Source of the DNA: a virus
IMG/VR virus record: IMGVR_UViG_3300030110_005295
Location: 1-22,551 of that record
Length of the DNA: 22,551 bases
Direction: 5' to 3' (one strand)
A program made the translations under genes and the position numbers. This document shows positions 10,598-22,551 of the stretch, in pieces; within the stretch, counting starts at the first letter, position 1; every line of letters starts with the position of its first letter. Under the pieces are notes generated by a model. That model did not search any database. It saw only the letters and a program-made list of their open reading frames with translations, and was not told the origin of the DNA.

Positions 10598-11005
10598 ATG
10601 GCAAGAATAATACAAAGTGAATTTCCAATTGATCTTACTCCTAGTGTAGCAGTAGGGTATGGTTTTCCTTTAGATGGAAATGCTGTGTTTATTCCAACAT
10701 TTACTACAAGAGAACAATTAAAAGCTAATTTAGTTAATTATTTATTAACTAATAAAGGTGAAAGATTATTTAGACCAGACTTTGGGGGTGATTTAAGAAA
10801 TTTATTATTTGAAGCTATATTAGACTCAACAACAGATGCACTACAAATAAGAATACAAAATGATATTAATTTATTTTTTCCTGAAATAGTAGTAAAACAA
10901 ATAGAATTTATAAATGAACCTGATAGAAATGAAATAACTTTTAATCTAGTATATCAAATAGAAAATTTTGGTATTGAAGATGAAATAACCATAGAATTAG
11001 AATAA
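10598..11005 (+). CDS. gp25: Baseplate wedge protein, gpW/gp25 family
   Basis: A 135-residue protein, the usual size for gp25 (T4 gp25 is 132). The family hallmark is LLTNKGERLFRPDFGGDL at 49-66, including the conserved Gly-Glu-Arg and P-x-F-G-G, followed by LRNLLFE. The C-terminal half has the IQNDINLFFPEIVVKQIEF strand-helix pattern and ends in strands (FNLVYQI, DEITIELE). gp25 forms part of the wedge inner ring and is related to the sheath-initiating protein in contractile systems. It starts three bases after the preceding gene and overlaps gp6 by one base (TAATG), the same order as gp25-gp6 in T4-like phages and related contractile tails. Confidence 0.93.
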   Translation: MARIIQSEFPIDLTPSVAVGYGFPLDGNAVFIPTFTTREQLKANLVNYLLTNKGERLFRPDFGGDLRNLLFEAILDSTTDALQIRIQNDINLFFPEIVVKQIEFINEPDRNEITFNLVYQIENFGIEDEITIELE

Positions 11006-12882
11006 TGGCCCAATTAGATAGAGACATAAGATATACAGATAGAGATTTTAATACTATTAGAAGTCAACTAATAGATTATTCAAAAACCTATTTCCCAAAT
11101 ACATTTAATGATTTTACAGAAACTTCTACAGGTATGCTATTTATTGAAATGGCAGCTTATGTAGGAGATGTAATGTCTTTTTATCTAGATAATCAAATTC
11201 AAGAAACATTTATACAAAAAGCTAGACAAACTCAAAATTTATATGCTTTAGCTTATTCATTAGGTTATGTTCCAAAAGTAACAACAGTTGCTACTACTTT
11301 TGTTGATTATTATCAACAAGTACCATCTATAGTAAGTGCAAGTATTTACGTACCAGATTATAGTTATGCTTTATTAATACCAGAAAATACATCTATTACA
11401 GCTAATAATGATTCATCTACTAAATTTTTAACAGAGGATGTAGTAGATTTTTCAGCATCAAGCTCTTTAGATCCAACAACAGTATCAGTTTACCAAATTA
11501 CAAACGGTAACCCAACATATTATTTATTAAAGAAAAGTAGAAAAGCTACATCATCAGAAATAATATCAACTAGTTTTACATTTACAAATGCTAAAAAATT
11601 CGATAGTGTTAATATAAATGATGCTAATATTATAGGAATATTAGATGTATTTGATTCTAATGGTAATCAATGGTATGAAGTACCTAATTTAGCTCAAGAA
11701 AATGTTTATAATACTATAAGAAATACAGATACAAATGATCCAAATTTTATAAATGACCCAGAAGTTCCTTATTTGTTAGAATTAAAAACAGTACAAAGAA
11801 GATTTGCAGCTAGATTTATAGATTCAGGATCATTACAACTTCAATTTGGAGCTGGTAGTACTAGATCTACAACAGAAGAAATAATACCTAACCCAGATAA
11901 TGTAGGTTTAGGTTTACCTTTTGAACAAAATAAATTAACAACAGCATTTTCCCCAACAAATTTTGTATTTACAAACACTTATGGAATTGCACCTTATAAT
12001 ACTACTTTAACAGTAAGATATTTAAAAGGAGGAGGAGCATCAGCTAATGTAGAAGCAGGAACATTAACTGGAGTAGATAATACTAATGTAACTTTTGTTA
12101 ATCAACCTATAATAACTACTCCTGCTGTCACAAATGCTCTAGCAAATCAAATATTTAATTCATTAACTTCAAATAATCCTTTAGCAGCTGATGGTGGTAT
12201 GGATGGAGATACTGTTGAAGAATTAAGACAGAATGCTTTAGGTAATTTTCAAAATCAATTAAGAGTAGTAACTACACAAGATTATTTAGTTAGAGCATTA
12301 TCAATGCCTTCTAAATTAGGTACTATAGCTAAAGCACACGCTCAACCTCAAAAAATAGGAGATTACCAATCAGGTGAGTTACCATCTGTATTGGATTTAT
12401 ATATTTTATCTTTTAATTCTAATAAACAATTAAGGACAGCATCTGTTACTTTAAAAAGAAATTTACAAACTTATCTATCAGAATATAGAATGATAAATGA
12501 TTCTATTAACATAAAAGATGCTTATATAATTAACATACAAGTTAATTTTGAAATAGTAGTTAATCCTAATTATAATAATAGTGAAGTACTAACTAATTGT
12601 ATAGATTCATTACAAGCTTATTTTGATATAGATAAATGGCAAATTAATGAACCTATTATAATGAAAGATATATTTGTAAGATTAAGTAAAATAGAAGGAG
12701 TTCAAATTGTAAAAAACATAGTAATAAGTAATCTAACAGGAGAAAGTAAGGGATATAGTAATTTTTCATATGATACTACAGCTGCAACTATAGATGATGT
12801 TTTATATCCATCTTTAGACCCAATGGTATTTGAAGTAAAATATCCTAATCAAGATATTATAGGTAAAGTAGTAGCAATATAA
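11005..12882 (+). CDS. gp6: Baseplate wedge protein gp6 (baseplate J-like)
   Basis: A 625-residue protein, close to T4 gp6 (660). The N terminus, YTDRDFNTIRSQLIDYSK (10-27) and TSTGMLFIEMAAYVGDVMSFYL (40-61), is the typical start of this family, followed by a helix carrying RQTQNLYALAYSLGYVP (74-90). The J-like core includes AADGGMDGDTVEELRQNA near 394-411 and TTQDYLVRALSMPSKLGTIA, and the C-terminal third is alternating strands and helices (INDSINIKDAYIINIQVNFE). gp6 dimers join wedges and control sheath contraction. It overlaps gp25 by one base and precedes the 870-residue structural protein by 12 bases. No insertion modules of the type seen in the next genes are apparent. Confidence 0.92.
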   Translation: MAQLDRDIRYTDRDFNTIRSQLIDYSKTYFPNTFNDFTETSTGMLFIEMAAYVGDVMSFYLDNQIQETFIQKARQTQNLYALAYSLGYVPKVTTVATTFVDYYQQVPSIVSASIYVPDYSYALLIPENTSITANNDSSTKFLTEDVVDFSASSSLDPTTVSVYQITNGNPTYYLLKKSRKATSSEIISTSFTFTNAKKFDSVNINDANIIGILDVFDSNGNQWYEVPNLAQENVYNTIRNTDTNDPNFINDPEVPYLLELKTVQRRFAARFIDSGSLQLQFGAGSTRSTTEEIIPNPDNVGLGLPFEQNKLTTAFSPTNFVFTNTYGIAPYNTTLTVRYLKGGGASANVEAGTLTGVDNTNVTFVNQPIITTPAVTNALANQIFNSLTSNNPLAADGGMDGDTVEELRQNALGNFQNQLRVVTTQDYLVRALSMPSKLGTIAKAHAQPQKIGDYQSGELPSVLDLYILSFNSNKQLRTASVTLKRNLQTYLSEYRMINDSINIKDAYIINIQVNFEIVVNPNYNNSEVLTNCIDSLQAYFDIDKWQINEPIIMKDIFVRLSKIEGVQIVKNIVISNLTGESKGYSNFSYDTTAATIDDVLYPSLDPMVFEVKYPNQDIIGKVVAI

Positions 12883-12894
12883 TTATATTAAGAA

Positions 12895-15507
12895 ATGGCA
12901 AATAGAAAAATATTCCCTTTAAAAGATGCAACAATGTATACTTTCTCCCAAAGTAGAAATACTGGGTTAGATGAGATATTAGAAGCTACTACAATATTAG
13001 AAGAAGATTCTCCTCAGGTAAGTAGATATTTACTTAAATATTCTCAAGATGAAATTAATACTTGGGTTACTTCTAGTGTATCAGGTTCAGTTACAGGCAC
13101 AACAGCTGGTGTTATGGTACTTAATGATCCAAATTTAATAAGACCAGAATCATATCAAAATTTCGAAACTAAAGGATTATCCTATCCTACAAGTTCAAGA
13201 AATAAATTTGATGCTATAGTAGAGCCATTATACTCAGGTAGTCAAAATCCAAATGAACCTATATATGCAGGTGGAAGTGGAACAGGTTTACAACTTTATT
13301 TATCAACAGGAGCAGCATATTTTAAACCAGGTGTTAGTTTAAGTGCATCAATAGCAACAAGTAATGCAGGTGGTCAACCAGCGGATAATGGTTGTAGAAT
13401 GACAGCTCCAGACGGTAATTATGGTCCATTTGCATTTAATAGAGGTGCAACAGGTAATTTAGAAGCAGATACACAAGGTGCAACTGTAACACTTGTAGTT
13501 AAAAATAACAGATTTGAAGATGCTTTTGTAGGTACAACAGCATTAACTTCAGGTGCTTCATTATTTGGTTCAGATGCTGAAACAGGTGCTACTCCTTCTT
13601 ATGGAGACTCTAATGCAGCAACAATGGCTGTTTTAGCTGCAGATTTAATAGCTGCAGGAATACAACTCGAATCAGGTGGATTAGTTGCAGGTCAAAATGT
13701 TTTAGCACAAACAGGAGGAGCAGCAAAAACAGCAATAGGTAACGTAACAGGACCTTTTGAAATTGATTTAAGTGGAGCAGGTGTTACTGTAACAGGTGGA
13801 ACACAACAAACAGGTAATGGTGGGGCTTTAACATTAACTGGTGATGGAGCAGGTAATGTATCAGCAGCTACAATTCCTAGTCTTGGTCAGGGTCAACAGT
13901 ATGTAGTTGGTAATATAATAACAATACCACAAGCTAATTTAATAGCAGCTGGTTTTACAGGTACTGTAGGTGTATTAACACTTACTTTAGGAGCAAGTAA
14001 TATAACTGCTGATGTAGCAAATAATGATGTTTCGTTTAATAATGGGTTTGGTAGTTTAGATGATGATTGGGGTGTATTTCCAATTACTTCATTAATAGCA
14101 GGTTATGATCCTAAATTATCTAGAGGTAAAGGATATAAATTTTCAGATAGATTATATATTCCTTCACAGTCATTCCATGGTTCAGATGATTATTATTTCG
14201 AATTAGATAAAGTAAATTCAGGAGCTAGTCCTAACACACAAAATTTTGAACCAGTTGAACATCAAATTACAATGGATAATTATGCTGCTGTAGTTACTGG
14301 TCTAGGAATGGATCAAAATTTAAAAATATACCCAGTTTCAGGAAGTTGGAATATGGGAACAGGTAGATTAGCTGACAACCCAATGACATCAAATGGTGTA
14401 AGTTGGAAATTTAGAAACTACTCAGGTTCAGCAGCTGAAGGAGCTTTAAATTGGGCTGAATCAGGAGCTATGACTACTGCAGCTGATCAACAAATAATAT
14501 CTACAACAGTAGGTACTATTAATGCTTCATTAACTAATATAGCAGGAAATGGAAGTAGAGGAGGAACAGGAGCACAATTTACAATTACAACCACAGGAGC
14601 ACAATTTACAATAACAACAGTAACTTGTACTACAGCGGGAACAGGATATATACCAGGAGATACAATTACAATAGCAGCAGCAGATTTAACTGGTGGGGCA
14701 ATAGGAACAGTAACAACTGATTTAGTATTTAAAGTTACTACAGTTGATGGTTTTGGAGCTTTTTCTGAAGCATCATATTCAGGATCAGATGTAGCTGGAG
14801 GAGGAAATTGGTATACAGGATCAAATGTAGGATTAGATGTAATACAAGAAAGAGTATTTAGTTATGGATCTGGAATTGATATAGAAGTAGATGTAACTGA
14901 TACTGTAAAAACCTGGTATACTTACTCACTAGCATCTATAACAAAAGGATTTCCAAATGATGGATTTTTAGTTAAACAATCAAGTTCAAGAGAATTTGTT
15001 GATAATAGAAATTTTCAATCCACATTTAAATATTTTTCAATAGACACAAATACAATATACCCACCTGCATTAAATTTAAAATGGAATGATTATTGTTTTT
15101 CTACAGGATCAACTAATCAATCAGTATTAAATACACAAGAATCATTTGTTAGCATTTATAATAATGCAGGTACATATTACTCAGAAAGTGTACCTAGATT
15201 AAGAGTAGCAGCAATACCAAAATATCCTGATGTAGTGTTTCAAACGGCTTCGTTATATACTAATAACCATTACTTACCATATACTTCATCATTTTATGCT
15301 ATTAAAGATACAGATACAAATGAGTATGTAGTTCCATTTTCAGACCCTTACACTAAAATAAGTGCAGATAGTATATCTAGTTATTTTGATGTAGAAATGG
15401 CTGGGTTGGAACCTGAAAGATATTATACTATATTGATTAAATCCACAGTAGGTGGTACAGTAAAAGTATTTGATGAAGATATAATGTTTAAAGTAATTAA
15501 TGGATAA
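12895..15507 (+). CDS. Large virion structural protein with inserted Gly/Thr-rich modules, 870 residues
   Basis: Residues 1-60 (KIFPLKDATMYTFSQSRNTG, then SRYLLKYS) resemble the start of a DNRLRE-like beta domain of cell-surface and phage proteins. The C-terminal half, from about residue 618, has FKYFSIDTNTIYPPALNLKW and FYAIKDTDTNEYVVPF and ends with ERYYTILIKSTVGG and FDEDIMFKVING; from memory this is a widespread phage structural family located after gp6. Residues about 150-370 and 540-617 differ: they are Gly/Ala/Thr-rich, repeat-like and contain GQQYVVGNIITI (334-345) and GTGYIPGDTITI (582-593). They interrupt the family-like parts, for example between an NW at 480-481 region and GNWYTGS near 635. 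A 27-base tandem duplication lies inside the second insert. Likely on the baseplate or fibre network; exact position unknown. Confidence 0.78.
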   Translation: MANRKIFPLKDATMYTFSQSRNTGLDEILEATTILEEDSPQVSRYLLKYSQDEINTWVTSSVSGSVTGTTAGVMVLNDPNLIRPESYQNFETKGLSYPTSSRNKFDAIVEPLYSGSQNPNEPIYAGGSGTGLQLYLSTGAAYFKPGVSLSASIATSNAGGQPADNGCRMTAPDGNYGPFAFNRGATGNLEADTQGATVTLVVKNNRFEDAFVGTTALTSGASLFGSDAETGATPSYGDSNAATMAVLAADLIAAGIQLESGGLVAGQNVLAQTGGAAKTAIGNVTGPFEIDLSGAGVTVTGGTQQTGNGGALTLTGDGAGNVSAATIPSLGQGQQYVVGNIITIPQANLIAAGFTGTVGVLTLTLGASNITADVANNDVSFNNGFGSLDDDWGVFPITSLIAGYDPKLSRGKGYKFSDRLYIPSQSFHGSDDYYFELDKVNSGASPNTQNFEPVEHQITMDNYAAVVTGLGMDQNLKIYPVSGSWNMGTGRLADNPMTSNGVSWKFRNYSGSAAEGALNWAESGAMTTAADQQIISTTVGTINASLTNIAGNGSRGGTGAQFTITTTGAQFTITTVTCTTAGTGYIPGDTITIAAADLTGGAIGTVTTDLVFKVTTVDGFGAFSEASYSGSDVAGGGNWYTGSNVGLDVIQERVFSYGSGIDIEVDVTDTVKTWYTYSLASITKGFPNDGFLVKQSSSREFVDNRNFQSTFKYFSIDTNTIYPPALNLKWNDYCFSTGSTNQSVLNTQESFVSIYNNAGTYYSESVPRLRVAAIPKYPDVVFQTASLYTNNHYLPYTSSFYAIKDTDTNEYVVPFSDPYTKISADSISSYFDVEMAGLEPERYYTILIKSTVGGTVKVFDEDIMFKVING
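13801..13995 (+). repeat. Gly/Thr-rich beta module 1 in the 870-residue structural protein
   Basis: Residues about 303-366. Pattern: GGALTLTGDGAGNVSAATI, a spacer, QYVVGNIITI, then a second strand pair ending GVLTLTL. The order L-T-L-T, G-x-G-x-V, A-x-I, Y-x-x-G-(D/N)-x-I-T-I also appears at 18091-18303, which reads GGTLTLTSNGAGEITTATL and GYTTDTVITI. The two modules are in different genes. Confidence 0.65.
14560..14745 (+). repeat. Gly/Thr-rich beta module 2 in the 870-residue structural protein
   Basis: Residues about 556-617, with GTGYIPGDTITI at 582-593. The DNA around 14637-14650 (GGGAACAGGATATA) is almost identical to 21474-21487 in the giant downstream gene, about 6.8 kb away, so similarity extends to the nucleotide level. 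Confidence 0.65.
14566..14619 (+). repeat. 27-base in-frame tandem duplication
   Basis: Two adjacent copies, 14566-14592 and 14593-14619, each encoding TGAQFTITT (residues 558-566 and 567-575). They differ at two third-codon positions (ATT/ATA and ACC/ACA). It adds nine residues in frame to the edge of module 2 and looks like a recent slippage or unequal recombination event. Confidence 0.9.
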
Positions 15508-15959
15508 TGGCAAAAACAAAAGATCTTAAATCAGTCATATTATCTGATGATGTTAAAAGAGGAAGAGGTAGTGGTGCTGGTGAAACTGTAAGTTTAAAAC
15601 GAGAAGCATTTAATAGAAAACAGTTTGATGATACTGTAAATACTGAATTTACAGAATTAGGACAATCTAACATAGAAAAAGATTTAAGTTTTTTTGATCC
15701 AAGCTTGGCTACTGTAGGAGATTTTTTTACTATATATAATACCTTATTTTATCAAATACCAAAAGAAGGAGAAATTAATTCACATATTTTTTTAATTAAA
15801 GAAAGTACTAATTATACTCAATATGAAGCACAAAGAGAAGAAATAGATGCTTTACAAGAAGAAATAGATCAATTAAGAGCACAAAATGTACAATTAGTTG
15901 AAGATTTAACAAATACAATAAATGCATTAACTAACTCAATAGGAAATATAGATGGATAA
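15507..15959 (+). CDS. Small structural protein with C-terminal coiled coil, 150 residues
   Basis: The first 35 residues are basic and Gly/Ser-rich (VKRGRGSGAGETVSLKREAF), then FDDTVNTEFTELG and a region with SLATVGDFFTIYNTLFYQIP near 66-85 that looks like a conserved structural core. Residues 104-145 are a strong coiled coil (EEIDALQEEIDQLRAQNVQL), suggesting trimerisation or bundling. It starts by TAATG overlap with the 870-residue gene and its end overlaps the next gene by eight bases (ATGGATAA), so all three are translationally coupled and probably form one sub-assembly. A fibre connector or adaptor is possible; no known family is recognised. Confidence 0.78.
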   Translation: MAKTKDLKSVILSDDVKRGRGSGAGETVSLKREAFNRKQFDDTVNTEFTELGQSNIEKDLSFFDPSLATVGDFFTIYNTLFYQIPKEGEINSHIFLIKESTNYTQYEAQREEIDALQEEIDQLRAQNVQLVEDLTNTINALTNSIGNIDG

Positions 15960-18900
15960 AAATGTAACATATTCTTCTTCTTTAGAAATCATTAACCCAG
16001 AAACATTATTTACTGATGGGTATGAGTTATCTAATCAAACTGTTATTCAAAGCCAAGAGTATATAGGTTCTTTTTTACCAGATGAAAATAACATTGAATT
16101 TTATATATATGATGCTAATAAAACTATAATTTATTCTGATTATTTCTTTCAAAATTATAGAATTAATGAAAATTATAACCCAACTAAATCATTAAATAAA
16201 AAAACACAACAGTTACAAATTTCAACTTCACAAATTAATTTAACTCCTGAGAGTGATGTAGCTACTCAAGGTTTTACTAATGGTGATTTATATGCTGTAT
16301 ATAATTTTATTAACCTAGAATTAGGCTCTAGTCCAAACATACCTTATTATTTAGCAGAAATCTCATCAGATAGAACAGAAATAAGATTAAAATCAAATTT
16401 TATTTCAACAAGAACAATGAAACAAACATCAGTTTCATTAAAACAAAAAATATCAAAAGCAGATTATTTTGATGAAGTTTATATTTCATTTGGTAATAAT
16501 GAATATCATATTGGGGTAAATATAAAATATGATGATTCAATTGAACAATCAACTACAGCTCAATCAGCAAATAATGTAAAATCAGGTAATGCTATTGGTC
16601 AATCTTCAATATTGATTAAATTATATGATCCTCTACCAATAAAATATGATTTATTAGATGAATTATATGTTGTAACTAAAACAGCAGAATCACAAGGTTA
16701 TTTAGTAAAATTTGTTAATGATTATTTAAATAATTTTGATAATATTGTATCTATTAAAGGCCCAAATTCTAATTTAAAGTTAAATGAATTTGTTAATGAT
16801 GATTCAATTAATAAAAATAAAAATAAATTATTAGGAACTAAATCATCGGGGTCAAAAGATCAATTATTAAATAGATTAGCTCAAGATGGGGTACAATTAT
16901 CACCTAATTACTCAACAGGTTCTTTTGAAGAATTTGTTAATTTTTCATCTGCAAAAGAGCAAGTAAGTAATTTTGTAGAAAAAATATCAAGAATACAAGC
17001 TTATGAAGCTGATATAGATACTTTATCATTTACCACATCATCAAACCCAGGAAGTGTTCCTATATCAGAAAGTATAGCTTCTTTATATACAAAAATAGAA
17101 AATGAAATAACAGCATTTTCAGGATTTGATTATTATCAATATTATGCTACATCATCTGATGCCTACCCAAAAACAGGTGATGTTTTTCCATTACAATTGT
17201 TAGCAACTTCATCTGCAACAGCACAAACTTGGATAACAGGAGCGGAATCAGCTGGTGAGGATTTTGATGGTAATAATCAAAATTGGTTATATTACACTGT
17301 TCCTGATTTTATTAAAAATAATACTTCTAACAATAATTATTTAGATTATGTAAATATGATTGGTCAATCATTTGATGAAGTATGGTTATATACTAAAGCT
17401 ATAACTGAAAAATTAAACACTACAAATAATTTAGATAAAGGTATTCCTTTACAATTAGCTGATGATGTAATAACATCTTTAGGATATACTGGGTTTGGAA
17501 ATAATTATAATAATCAAGATAATTTTATAGGTTTAATTGGTAGTGATAATGGATTATTTGTGCCTCCAACAGGAAGTGAATTAATAAATCATTATATAGC
17601 AATTAATGGTCCTGGTGGAATTATAAATTATTGGGAAGATGGATATTCATATGAGGATTATGTAGAATCATTTAAAAATTTAGGTTTTCCTTATCCAATT
17701 GATAAAGTAAGTAAAGAAATATTTAAACGTCTTTATCATAATATGGCTTATCTTGTAAAGAAAAAAGGTACAGTAGCAGGATTAAGACAGTTAATTAATA
17801 TTTGGGGTATACCTAATACAATATTAAGAATAAATGAATTTGGAGGTAAAAATAAAGATGAAGAAAACGACTATGATTTATGGTATCAAAGATATAGTTA
17901 TGCTTTTAGCCCTGTACCAGCAGGAACTAACTATGCAAGTGCATCTGTAAGAGTACCATGGCAACCTTTATATAGAAATTATATTCATTCCCATAATAAA
18001 TTAGTATCAACTTCAACTATAACAGCTGGAGGTACTACTTTAACTGGAGCAGCAGCAGGTCAAACATCCGCAGCATACGGTATAGATACACAATTTACAG
18101 TAACAGGAGGGGGAAGTGGAGGTACATTAACATTAACTTCAAACGGAGCAGGTGAAATAACAACTGCTACCTTAACACAAGGTGATTCTGGAGGATATAC
18201 AACAGACACAGTAATAACAATTACAGCAGCCCAAGTAAATGCTTTAAATGATGCTAATTTAGGTACATCTGTAGCAGGTGGAGCAGCTACATTTTCTGTA
18301 GCAAATGGTAATTTAGGAGCTGAACAAATAGTACCTGATGGTATAGGATTTAGATTTAAAACAACTGGTTATCCATCTTCTTCATTTGCTGGTACTTTTG
18401 ACTCGCAATCATTACTAATTAAAAAATCTACTAACACAGCTACTGATGCTGATTTTGGTATAGCATTATATTATACAGGTTCAACATCAGGTTCACATTT
18501 AGGTTCAACAAGTAGTAAGTATGTTGATTATGGTGAAATGAGATTTTTTATAAAAGGAGATGCTAATGGAGGAGGAACAGCAATGTCAGATCCTATTTAT
18601 TTACCTTTCTTTGATAAAGGGTGGTGGTCAGTTTTATTACAAAGAGATCAACATCCTATTACAACTGATAATGATCAAAATACTACTTATACTTTATATG
18701 CAGCAAATAAAATTTATGACGGTGCTGATGGTAATCAAATAGGATTTCAAGGATCAGCTAGTATATATGTAAACATAAATAATGGAAGTCCACCTTCATT
18801 TGGACACCCAGCTAATGTTGACTCAGCATCTGTAAACTCATCATGGAATAGTTTTTCAACTGATATAGCAACTTATGGAGCAGGTTTATATTTAGGTGGA

Positions 18901-21900
18901 TGGGGTAATACATTAACAGCAGGAACAACCGGTAGTATAGGAACATTATCTGTAGGAGGAACAAAAGGTGTTCAAAATGCAGGTAAAAATTTCTCTGGAT
19001 CACTTCAAGAATTTAGATATTATTCGCATGATATAAGCCAATCAGTATTTAATGATTTTGTAATGAATCCTGAATCAATTGAGGGTAATAATATTACAGG
19101 TTCAGAATCATCATTTGATATAGTAAACTTTAGAGCTCCGTTAGGTAATGAATTGGAAAATAAATTTACATCATCTCAATATTTAACTCAATACGATAAA
19201 CAATACCCTTCAGTTCACCCTGCAATTACAGGTTCATCACCTTTAGTAATAACAGCTTCATTTTATGATGTAAATCAAGCTACAATAAATGATGCAGATT
19301 TAACTTCTAGTTATGATGTAACTTTTAATGTTAATTCATCAACTAGAACTTATAGTGATACAAATGTAGAAACTTACTTTTTAGATCAACCTTCAATAGG
19401 ACTTAGAAATAGAGTAAGTAATAAAATAAAATATTCTACTAATTTAAATTTTGGCACAACTTTATCACCAAAAGTTAGTATACAACAAGATCCACCTGTA
19501 AGTCAAAGTTATACAGATAATATTAATTCATTAGAAGTAGCATTTTCACCTACTGAAGAAGTAAATGATGATATAATTCAAGCTTTAGGTTACGGTGCTA
19601 TACAAGAAGTAATAGCAGATCCTAGATTTAGATCATCATCAGATGATTATTATCCAGGTTTAAGAAATATATCAAAAGATTATTTTAAAAAATATCAAAA
19701 TCGTAGCCAAGTTGATTATTTAAGGTTAATTAAATATTTTGATGATTCATTATTTAGAGCGATTAAGAATTATGTACCTGCACGTACAAGTGTGTCTACA
19801 GGTATTGTAATTAAACAACACATGCTTGAACGTAATAGATACCGAGAGCCGCAAGTTGACATAGTTACTACACAATCTTACGCACCTTTTAATCAACCAT
19901 TAACATTTAAAAATTTAGAATTAACAGGTTCAGCTAATACACACCAATTATGGGATCCTATAAAACAAACAACATATTATTCATCTTCATTTGTATATGA
20001 CATTGAAGGTGGTCCCGGAGGAAGTGTTAATCAATATAATATATTAGAAGAAGGAGGTTCATTGTTTATATTAGAAAGTGATGATTTAGCTTTAACAGCA
20101 ACTAAACAATCAATATTTGAAGCAGTACCTTTAGAAGAAGTAAACCAAGATATAACTCTAGTAGATGCTGGTCCTGTACAAGCTCAAGGAACAGTAACTA
20201 TTGATTTTGGAGACAGTGTTCAAACAATAGCTGCTGGTTCATCTAATGATGCTCACTCTATACAAATTGTAACCATTAACCCTAGTGATGGATCACCTAT
20301 TACTAAAAAATATTGCTCATCAACAGGAACAACAGGTGCTATTGGAAATACAGATTTTACATTATTTAATGGAACAGGAGCAGCAGCTGATAAAGCTACA
20401 CAATTTGCAGCAGCTGTAAATTCTGTTAATGGTCAAGGTAGTTTAGCTGCTACTCCAACTGTAAGAGCTATAGTAGATCCTAGTGATAGTACTCAAGTTA
20501 TATTAACACAATTATATGGAGGTACAGATGGTAATACTACAGTTACTTATGGTACTAATGTAGCAAATAACTTTACTAATGGTTTACCTTTAACATTTAA
20601 CAATGTCCAGGGTGGAAATACTTTAGCTGTTGGACCTCAAAATAATAGAAATACAAGTATAACAGATCTAAAAGTAAACGTAACATTTACAGGAAGTGGA
20701 CCTACATTTAATATTAGTACAGTTACTCTAAATTCATCTACAACAAATAGTCAAAGTACAGTAGGTGATTCGTTTACAATTACAGTATTCGCAGGTGGAG
20801 GTAGCCCAGGTGCAGATGTAGCGACTGTAGATACTGTAGTAAGAACTGCTGCAAGTTTTACAGGCGGTACTAGTAGATTTTCAAATACATTTTTAAATGT
20901 TGATAAATCATTAAGAACTCCAATTTATGTTGAATATGATTTTGAAACAGCACCTGCACCTAGTGTTGCAGTAACAATAGAAGCATCTTCAAGTATAAGG
21001 GGAGTAGTTTATACTAATACAACAACTTACACAGACCAACTACCAGTGGGTAGTATTTTATTAGATGCAGCAGGAGAAAAACAATATTTAACAATTCACC
21101 CAGAAGAAGATATGTATTTACTAATATCTTCAACCCCATCAATAACAGTTGATGATTATCAAGTAATATTAGGAGAAAACATATTAATTACAACAGCTTT
21201 AGCTGCTCAATCTACAACAGCTTCTCCAACTTTATTACTAGATACTTTTAGTAATGGTGAAATACCATCAGTAGGTTCTGTAGTAACAGGACGAGATATA
21301 AAAGCTGGAGTAGTAACTGTTTTAGGAGCAGTAACTGCTGCTGGGACAGGATATACTCCTGGTACTTCAGTTTTAGCTACAACAGGAGCTGGAGGGAATA
21401 ATTTAACATTAACAGTTACAGCAGACGCTAATGGTAATGTTACAACAGCAGCTATATCAGGAGCAGCCAATCCAGGAACAGGATATACTTCAGGTGATAT
21501 AGTTACTATAGTAGGAGGTAATAATGATGCTAGAGTTGAAATTACAACAGCTACTTCCTTAACTATTGTAGTTAATGCTTTTGATCCTACAAATGATCAA
21601 GTAACATTTAACGAAAACCAAACAGTAACAGATAATTCAAAAATTACATTTACAGAAACAGCTATTCCTGATGCAGATACAGAGCCAGTATCACAACAAG
21701 GTAGTTGGAATTATAATGTAACAACTTTAGGTATTGATACTACTTGGGATGATACACAAGAACAATTTTATGATGGTGCTTATAGTGGTAGTAATTTTAG
21801 TGCTGGTCAATATTATAATAGTCAATATAACCCATATAGAAAAGTAAAACCTAATTCAACTACTTTATTACCTACTACTAAGATAATTACTCCTGGTCCT

Positions 21901-22551
21901 ATTTCAATAGTAGGTTTAGGAACTGGTTTTAGTTTTGATACTCTAGCAGGTAGTGGAGTAGATCAATATTATATGTTAGGTATTACTGATACAGACATTG
22001 TACCTTATCAAATTTATAATATAGAATATGATGTTTCAATTACAACAAATGCTGGTACTGGACAAAAAGTAGGAATGTTCCTACAAAATTATGATCCAGT
22101 AACTAATACACTATTAACACCTCAAATAGTATCTAAAACTACAAATTTTGTTGCAGGTACAGGATATTCAATGAATGGGAATGTAGCTACAACTTCAGGT
22201 GGTTCAGGAACAGGATTAACAGTAGATATACTTGAAGTTAACTCCGCTGGTGCTATTCAAGAATTTGTTATAGATGACCCAGGTGATGGAAATTATGCTT
22301 TAGGTGAAACAGTTACAATAAGTGGAGGTGATGGAAATTCTACGTTTACAGTTGCAAGAAATTCAACAATACACACTAATGGAGTACCAGAAAGTGCTTT
22401 AACAGATGAAACATCTAAAAAAATAAGATTTTCATTTAGATTTCTTCCAAACCTTGATGGTGATACATCACCTAGTGCTCGTTATGATTTAGGATTCCAA
22501 ATAGATGGGTTAATTGTAGGTTCCATTTCAAATATTAAAGTAACAGCAGAA
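15952..22551 (+). CDS. Giant baseplate/tail-fibre protein with LamG domain and repeat modules (partial, no stop in window)
   Basis: The frame from ATG 15952 is open for 2200 codons to the last base; the end lies beyond the window. Residues 1-660 are a tail scaffold; RLYHNMAYLVKKKGTVAGL (594-612) and LINIWGIPNTILRINEFGG (614-632) resemble, from memory, a motif of phage baseplate proteins of the gp7 / P2 tail protein I kind. Residues about 686-790 are a Gly/Thr-rich insert. Residues about 793-1045 fit a LamG/concanavalin-like fold, ending SGSLQEFRYYSHDISQSVF, which may bind glycans. Residues about 1200-1303 return to the scaffold, with YLRLIKYFDDSLFRAI and VPARTSVSTGIVIKQHMLER. Beyond 1303 come display modules: a fold with ATQFAAAVNSVNGQG (about 1409-1550) and GTGY repeats at 1798, 1842 and 2069. 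It is likely host-contacting and baseplate-anchored. The start overlaps the preceding gene by eight bases. Exact gp7 equivalence is unproven. Confidence 0.85.
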   Translation, partial: MDKNVTYSSSLEIINPETLFTDGYELSNQTVIQSQEYIGSFLPDENNIEFYIYDANKTIIYSDYFFQNYRINENYNPTKSLNKKTQQLQISTSQINLTPESDVATQGFTNGDLYAVYNFINLELGSSPNIPYYLAEISSDRTEIRLKSNFISTRTMKQTSVSLKQKISKADYFDEVYISFGNNEYHIGVNIKYDDSIEQSTTAQSANNVKSGNAIGQSSILIKLYDPLPIKYDLLDELYVVTKTAESQGYLVKFVNDYLNNFDNIVSIKGPNSNLKLNEFVNDDSINKNKNKLLGTKSSGSKDQLLNRLAQDGVQLSPNYSTGSFEEFVNFSSAKEQVSNFVEKISRIQAYEADIDTLSFTTSSNPGSVPISESIASLYTKIENEITAFSGFDYYQYYATSSDAYPKTGDVFPLQLLATSSATAQTWITGAESAGEDFDGNNQNWLYYTVPDFIKNNTSNNNYLDYVNMIGQSFDEVWLYTKAITEKLNTTNNLDKGIPLQLADDVITSLGYTGFGNNYNNQDNFIGLIGSDNGLFVPPTGSELINHYIAINGPGGIINYWEDGYSYEDYVESFKNLGFPYPIDKVSKEIFKRLYHNMAYLVKKKGTVAGLRQLINIWGIPNTILRINEFGGKNKDEENDYDLWYQRYSYAFSPVPAGTNYASASVRVPWQPLYRNYIHSHNKLVSTSTITAGGTTLTGAAAGQTSAAYGIDTQFTVTGGGSGGTLTLTSNGAGEITTATLTQGDSGGYTTDTVITITAAQVNALNDANLGTSVAGGAATFSVANGNLGAEQIVPDGIGFRFKTTGYPSSSFAGTFDSQSLLIKKSTNTATDADFGIALYYTGSTSGSHLGSTSSKYVDYGEMRFFIKGDANGGGTAMSDPIYLPFFDKGWWSVLLQRDQHPITTDNDQNTTYTLYAANKIYDGADGNQIGFQGSASIYVNINNGSPPSFGHPANVDSASVNSSWNSFSTDIATYGAGLYLGGWGNTLTAGTTGSIGTLSVGGTKGVQNAGKNFSGSLQEFRYYSHDISQSVFNDFVMNPESIEGNNITGSESSFDIVNFRAPLGNELENKFTSSQYLTQYDKQYPSVHPAITGSSPLVITASFYDVNQATINDADLTSSYDVTFNVNSSTRTYSDTNVETYFLDQPSIGLRNRVSNKIKYSTNLNFGTTLSPKVSIQQDPPVSQSYTDNINSLEVAFSPTEEVNDDIIQALGYGAIQEVIADPRFRSSSDDYYPGLRNISKDYFKKYQNRSQVDYLRLIKYFDDSLFRAIKNYVPARTSVSTGIVIKQHMLERNRYREPQVDIVTTQSYAPFNQPLTFKNLELTGSANTHQLWDPIKQTTYYSSSFVYDIEGGPGGSVNQYNILEEGGSLFILESDDLALTATKQSIFEAVPLEEVNQDITLVDAGPVQAQGTVTIDFGDSVQTIAAGSSNDAHSIQIVTINPSDGSPITKKYCSSTGTTGAIGNTDFTLFNGTGAAADKATQFAAAVNSVNGQGSLAATPTVRAIVDPSDSTQVILTQLYGGTDGNTTVTYGTNVANNFTNGLPLTFNNVQGGNTLAVGPQNNRNTSITDLKVNVTFTGSGPTFNISTVTLNSSTTNSQSTVGDSFTITVFAGGGSPGADVATVDTVVRTAASFTGGTSRFSNTFLNVDKSLRTPIYVEYDFETAPAPSVAVTIEASSSIRGVVYTNTTTYTDQLPVGSILLDAAGEKQYLTIHPEEDMYLLISSTPSITVDDYQVILGENILITTALAAQSTTASPTLLLDTFSNGEIPSVGSVVTGRDIKAGVVTVLGAVTAAGTGYTPGTSVLATTGAGGNNLTLTVTADANGNVTTAAISGAANPGTGYTSGDIVTIVGGNNDARVEITTATSLTIVVNAFDPTNDQVTFNENQTVTDNSKITFTETAIPDADTEPVSQQGSWNYNVTTLGIDTTWDDTQEQFYDGAYSGSNFSAGQYYNSQYNPYRKVKPNSTTLLPTTKIITPGPISIVGLGTGFSFDTLAGSGVDQYYMLGITDTDIVPYQIYNIEYDVSITTNAGTGQKVGMFLQNYDPVTNTLLTPQIVSKTTNFVAGTGYSMNGNVATTSGGSGTGLTVDILEVNSAGAIQEFVIDDPGDGNYALGETVTISGGDGNSTFTVARNSTIHTNGVPESALTDETSKKIRFSFRFLPNLDGDTSPSARYDLGFQIDGLIVGSISNIKVTAE
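18091..18303 (+). repeat. Gly/Thr-rich beta module inserted before the LamG domain
   Basis: Residues about 714-784 of the giant protein: FTVTGGGSGGTLTLTSNGAG, ITTATL, GGYTTDTVITI, then an Ala/Asn-rich stretch and ATFSV. It is the closest match to the module at 13801-13995 and lies between the scaffold segment (VPWQPLYRNYIHSHNK) and the start of the LamG domain (GIGFRFKT), where it looks like an insert. Confidence 0.65.
21328..21534 (+). repeat. Tandem GTGY modules in the giant protein
   Basis: GTGYTPG at residues 1798-1804 and GTGYTSGD at 1842-1849, 44 residues (132 bases) apart, enclosing NNLTLTVTADANGNVTTAAI. The DNA reads GGGACAGGATATACT at 21343 and GGAACAGGATATACT at 21475. The second unit continues IVTIVGG and a closing strand. 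Tandem units of about 44 residues are typical of beta-stranded fibre or display domains. Confidence 0.75.
22147..22359 (+). repeat. Third GTGY module pair in the giant protein
   Basis: GTGYSMNG at residues 2069-2076, then SGTGLTVDILEVNSAGAIQE, and GDGNYALGETVTISGG at about 2111-2126. It again shows a spacing of about 44 residues between the two Tyr positions (2072 and 2115). It is more diverged than the pair at 21328-21534. Confidence 0.65.

Follow-up and report, generated by a model that had tools for sequence, protein, structure and literature searches.

Phage Ig-like domains are described as promiscuous accessories of many unrelated virion proteins, for which weak adhesion has been proposed (Fraser et al. 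2006, cited in PMC9230969 and PMC10276861), and crAss-like phages are described as carrying BACON repeats, putatively carbohydrate-related, in variable copy number within a structural protein (PMC6949934). On a more general level, a survey of domain mosaicism describes homologous fragments common to otherwise unrelated phage proteins, including those of tail, baseplate, and neck (PMC10684548). In the sheath protein gp18 of phage T4, domain II is interrupted by domain I, which protrudes outward without forming sheath–sheath contacts; domain I binds the baseplate as well as the retracted long tail fibres, and three mutations located in this domain stop fibre retraction (PMC3004832).

The locus compared here with these systems is a 22.5-kb virus record (22,551 nucleotides, the whole stretch of DNA that was analysed and hereafter called the window), whose genes belong to the baseplate region of a marine T4-like myovirus. 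The gp25-like and gp6/BaseplateJ-like genes come first; p1 and p2 follow, separated by a gene for a predicted coiled-coil protein of 150 aa. The gp25-like gene (10598–11005) and the gp6/BaseplateJ-like gene (11005–12882) were assigned as baseplate wedge genes by PHROG 261/43 and 219/10646 and by Pfam PF04865; they are encoded on the plus strand, as are p1, p2, and all features of these two genes given below. The scaffold protein p1 (12895–15507, 870 aa), which follows the gp6-like BaseplateJ gene, was delimited by its open reading frame and homologues; the giant structural protein p2 (15952–22551), delimited by its open reading frame and relatives, comprises more than 2200 aa, is open at the window end, and reaches a full length of 3049 aa in the relative L003/L059. 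Named relatives of p1 and p2 come from Flavobacterium phage immuto, Microcystis phage Mel-JY01, and an uncultured phage, and many IMG/VR contigs are closer. A suspicion, raised by eye, that the scaffolds are DNRLRE-, LamG-, or CBM-like received no confirmation from Pfam. Elsewhere in the window, an ATP-dependent DNA ligase gene (1298–2572) lies near the tail gene cluster and is immediately preceded by a gene for a small T5orf172/MUG113 (GIY-YIG-like) protein (439–894).

We propose, with a probability of about 70%, that Gly/Thr-rich modules found in p1 and p2 represent a promiscuous accessory domain that has been inserted repeatedly into virion-protein loops of marine T4-like myoviruses.

Definition of the module family

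A sequence-only reading of this DNA had placed five modules of a single family in two different structural genes. All five are present, in frame, at the positions it had given, and their homology across p1 and p2 is supported by profile searches. An iterated profile that was started from the five segments converged on a family whose core spans about 46 residues, or about 80 once the flanks are counted, and whose consensus is GTGATATVTVTSAGTITSITITTGGTGYKPGDVITI. Because circularity had to be avoided, an independent profile was restricted to 21 module sequences that all lie outside the window's clade. This profile recovers exactly five modules: m2 (33.5 bits; p1 aa 543–615, 14521–14739) and m1 (30.9 bits; p1 aa 303–378, 13801–14028) in p1, as well as m3 (23.2 bits; match at p2 aa 703–787), m4 (15.4 bits; match at p2 aa 1795–1885), and m5 (12.2 bits; p2 aa 2062–2133, 22135–22350) in p2. 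As controls, the best of 500 locally shuffled p1+p2 sets reached 9.5 bits, and the best among 13 other window proteins tested reached 7.2 bits. A sixth region, which the sequence-only reading had not listed, may be a degenerate copy (p1 aa 409–468, 14119–14298; RGKGYKFSDRLYIPSQSF); with 9.6 bits it is borderline relative to the shuffle maximum. This region adjoins the point at which the p1 scaffold resumes, and module-like residues occur there in L015, L061, L023, and L039 as well. The modules measure about 75–85 residues and share the core G-T-G-A..V.V...G.I.S..I...G-T-G-Y..G-D.I-T-I.

Neither Pfam nor NCBIfam offers a confident model for the modules, and a comparison of 22 modules with Pfam gave no match at E ≤ 1 to an Ig-like family such as Big_2, I-set, or FN3. 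A tblastn search of phages with the consensus module returned no match, the low-complexity query having probably been filtered. Among solved structures matched by sequence, most entries were antibody chains, which we attribute to composition, and two were DUF4465 entries (E 0.003 over 40 residues), which we take as chance; the next were six T4-type sheath entries.

Filled and empty loops in p1 and p2

The suggestion that the modules interrupt otherwise family-like scaffolds was borne out by alignment to module-free homologues, which have short loops or no residues at all at the corresponding sites. Homologues of p1 range from 350 to more than 1035 aa in length. In the window, the conserved parts of p1 are an N part (aa 1–62) and a C part (aa 460–521 and 622–870), and two loops are expanded, as judged from loop lengths and, for loop A, the alignment: loop A (aa ~63–459, 13081–14271) and loop B (aa ~522–621, 14458–14757), the latter holding m2. 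We measured both as the interval between conserved blocks in 41 aligned homologues. Loop A comprises 9–20 residues in lineages without modules, 107–121 in a clade with one module, 247–271 in another clade, 393–399 in the window's clade (~397–399 in the window itself), and 608 in the relative L007, which yields a length ladder of about 10, 110, 250, 397, and 608 residues. Loop B comprises 5–8 residues in homologues outside the window's clade and 100 within it. At both sites the modules are thus found in a loop of their host virion protein (9–20 versus 107–608 and 5–8 versus 100 residues). Relative to the window, loop A of L007 has ~211 extra residues with further modules inside, and the DNA on either side of them is ~89–92% identical between the two. 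About 230 loop A residues contain no recognisable module. For many close p1 homologues (L008–L014 and L016), the contigs end within loop A, which looks as though this variable region interrupts assembly.

The stepwise growth of loop A and its large share of unrecognisable sequence, together with the simple, repetitive composition of the modules and the existence of degenerate copies, would also be expected if the modules were structural padding, that is, Gly/Thr-rich beta inserts under little constraint that bind nothing, make the baseplate longer or more stable, and have spread because loops tolerate insertions. We regard this main rival explanation as unlikely on three grounds: First, m2 is conserved among close relatives (84.9–97.3% amino acid identity) with a dN/dS of 0.10–0.53, which resembles that of the scaffold and corresponds to purifying selection rather than hypervariability. 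Second, the GTGY..GD motif is preserved in very different host proteins. Third, relatives with empty loops exist, which makes the inserts dispensable for the scaffold. Compared with L005, L006, and L007, m1 shows 51–68% identity and a dN/dS of 0.66–1.07, and the flanking parts of loop A are ~80–99% identical; given the few sequences and the insertion beside m1 in L007, the greater divergence of m1 relative to its surroundings is suggestive only.

In p2, the insert with m3 (aa 686–790, 18007–18321) is present in the window, L002, L057, and L058, and it is cleanly absent in L059 and in all more distant homologues. The scaffold tree groups L058 and L059 as sisters (support 1.000), so that the minimal history of m3 comprises a gain and a loss or else two separate gains. 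The 160-residue insert with m4 (aa 1743–1902, 21178–21657) is missing in both L058 and L059. Its flanks, ~50 residues before and 17–35 after the module, are not module-like. Perhaps m4 is nested in another inserted domain; a search for an empty version of such a domain returned none, and inspection of the insertion edges of m3 and m4 revealed no obvious duplication. The domain that hosts m5 occurs in L062 and L067 without a recognisable module and in L015 with one. Moreover, L015 and L060 carry two modules at another place of the same p2 scaffold.

The reverse history, in which these proteins contained the modules from the start and the short forms arose by loss, draws on the absence of m3 in L059, for which loss is the simplest explanation because the sister L058 carries m3, and on some module-like residues in loop A of several clades. 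It is made very improbable by the short loops, which are shared by numerous divergent lineages, immuto and Mel-JY01 among them, by loop B, which is filled in the window's clade only, and by the module sites, which differ between clades on the same p2 scaffold. Modules that are ancestral and present everywhere had been named beforehand as an outcome that would refute the sequence-only reading; what we found are empty loops and cleanly absent inserts in relatives.

Exchange between genes and distribution among phages

The sequence-only reading had also taken shared nucleotides as a sign of recent exchange between genes, a claim that did not hold, as codon sharing is close to what codon bias predicts. 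The 13-mer GGRACAGGATATA, on which the claim was based, does have three matches in the window compared with 0.08 expected in shuffled DNA, but the first of them starts at 14638 and not at 14637. Given the G-T-G-Y motif and the codon usage of this phage, identity at all 12 coding bases would arise in about 10% of cases, and the 13-mer therefore says little about exchange. Within the window, an identical codon is used at 122/212 shared amino acids versus 109 expected from codon usage, and across all contigs compared, whose pairs are non-independent, at 463/808 versus 417. Between the two genes of the window, DNA similarity does not extend beyond ~43 nt (79% identity) at the GTGY..GD motif. The strongest DNA match across genes connects m2 of p1 with a p2 module of L005 (~84% over 62 nt; 36/66 aligned amino acids). 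If recombination at shared motifs such as this 13-mer were now carrying module copies from one gene to another within a genome, the occurrence of the 13-mer at three sites and the match to L005 would be accounted for. Such ongoing copying is nevertheless highly unlikely in view of the near-expected codon identity, the ~10% chance of the 13-mer per GTGY, and the fact that the cross-gene DNA matches of the window end at the motif. The DNA comparisons instead indicate that cross-gene copying occurred too long ago to have left clear DNA identity.

The scope of the family turned out to be wider than the two genes originally named, extending to two downstream genes in relatives and, in cyanophages, to genes for neck, sheath, baseplate, and fibre proteins. 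The two module-bearing genes downstream of p2 are located at L059:21325–23532 and L059:19883–21334. A downstream protein of 484 aa is homologous to proteins of immuto and Mel-JY01, and its module region is common to S-PM2 and other cyanophage structural proteins. Among Synechococcus myoviruses, a whole-record profile search with a threshold of E ≤ 0.01 gave 16 matches in S-PM2, 17 in S-H9-2, 15 in S-MbCM7, and 18 in S-B43, and it gave no match in immuto or Mel-JY01. Whole-record searching also gave five matches in P-SSM2 and two in Pelagibacter phage HTVC008M but none in KVP40, phiKZ, lambda, P-SSP7, or HTVC010P, and a 142-kb contig with the p1/p2 scaffold holds no module.

Among the annotated module hosts of S-MbCM7 and S-PM2 are neck protein gp14, sheath protein gp18, a fibre protein, a gp7-like protein, and the giant protein encoded after gp6. 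The gp14 protein has 292 aa in S-PM2 and 372–374 aa, with an insert of ~80 aa, in S-H9-2 and S-MbCM7; in the gp14 neck proteins of two cyanophages (NC_023587.1 98207–99331, MW147367.1 47201–48319), the insert carries the module motif. Conversely, gp18 has 743 aa with a module (33 bits) in S-PM2 and 636 aa without one in S-MbCM7. Presence and absence of modules between conserved flanks was accordingly observed in the comparisons of p1, p2, gp14, and gp18. In PHROG profiles, module members match virion structural, baseplate wedge, Hc2, and fibre families, and the same domain is found in many unrelated virion proteins.

Relation to gp18 domain I and other known systems

In five out of five T4-type genomes (T4 and four others), the best genome-wide match of the module profile is gp18 domain I. 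T4 gp18 scores 19.0 bits, versus a maximum of 11.8 in 5000 shuffles and at most 3.3 for other T4 tail proteins, and hhalign assigns a probability of 90% to the match between module and gp18 domain I over 22 columns; the alignment to domain I spans only ~18–36 residues. The curated cut-off of 27 bits for PF22639 (Gp18_dom_I), a model that gives T4 gp18 domain I 131 bits, was not reached by the modules, 3/22 of which match at E ≤ 1 (best E 0.0056). In computational models, the module folds into five strands and a short helix (mean pLDDT 71.6), with the order strand-strand-strand-strand-helix-strand in m2. A Foldseek search with the module model revealed no convincing PDB neighbour and did not return gp18; likewise, a fold search with the p1 model yielded nothing convincing, loop A being poorly modelled (pLDDT <50 over aa 77–266). 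The published substitution G106S (PMC3004832), if its numbering omits Met1, would affect the first Gly of a shared G-x-N-Y motif. Taken at the level of sequence, common descent of the modules and gp18 domain I is likely.

For the accessory-domain reading we envisage the following course: A domain of ~75–85 residues, for which modelling suggests a small beta fold and a single short helix, would repeatedly enter loops; it would owe its spread to duplication and recombination of old date, among virion genes as well as among phages, rather than to recent gene conversion in this genome. The copies would fold independently on the particle exterior, where extra domains could be tolerated without disturbing assembly and may add weak binding. 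Their putative role would be weak adhesion to host surface polymers, along the lines suggested for phage Ig-like domains (PMC9230969), or a docking of fibres to the tail as for gp18 domain I. Judging from the insertion into loops and from the gp18 case, the modules are probably surface-exposed, and we infer an accessory binding or docking role. An interchangeable display of modules, as had been envisaged for baseplate and fibres, is plausible. A more far-reaching version holds that all copies within one phage, whether they sit in neck, sheath, baseplate, or fibre proteins, have a common partner, either fibres or a host surface polymer, that phages tune fibre stowage or adhesion by gain and loss of copies in loops, and that gp18 domain I is a relic of this arrangement; we consider this speculative and improbable.

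The findings trace many giant structural proteins of marine T4-like phages, so far uncharacterised, to one unnamed domain family, which gives as many as 18 profile matches in a single genome. They also suggest a tentative link to T4 gp18 domain I, which alone has been studied well. Scaffolds that occur with zero, one, or several modules are natural experiments on what inserted virion domains do. In practice, the modules can be masked when such proteins are annotated or used for tree building.

The principle behind these observations is known, and the module family and its accretion in loops seem new with respect to the literature searched, of which coverage was partial. The accessible part of the mosaicism survey (PMC10684548) describes the principle and does not identify this family. 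BACON domains are unrelated to the modules by Pfam and, as far as the available account goes, stand in tandem within one protein, whereas the modules are dispersed as single inserts or short arrays. With phage Ig-like domains the modules share their occurrence across many unrelated virion proteins; they differ in being inserted into internal loops and in being found mainly in marine T4-like phages within the set of genomes searched. The closest parallel is T4 gp18 domain I, a domain of ~90 aa that forms a six-stranded beta-barrel with one helix: like the modules, it is inserted in a loop of a virion protein and contains the G-x-x-Y-x-x-G-D strand-turn, but it is one domain in one protein, whereas the modules recur across many.
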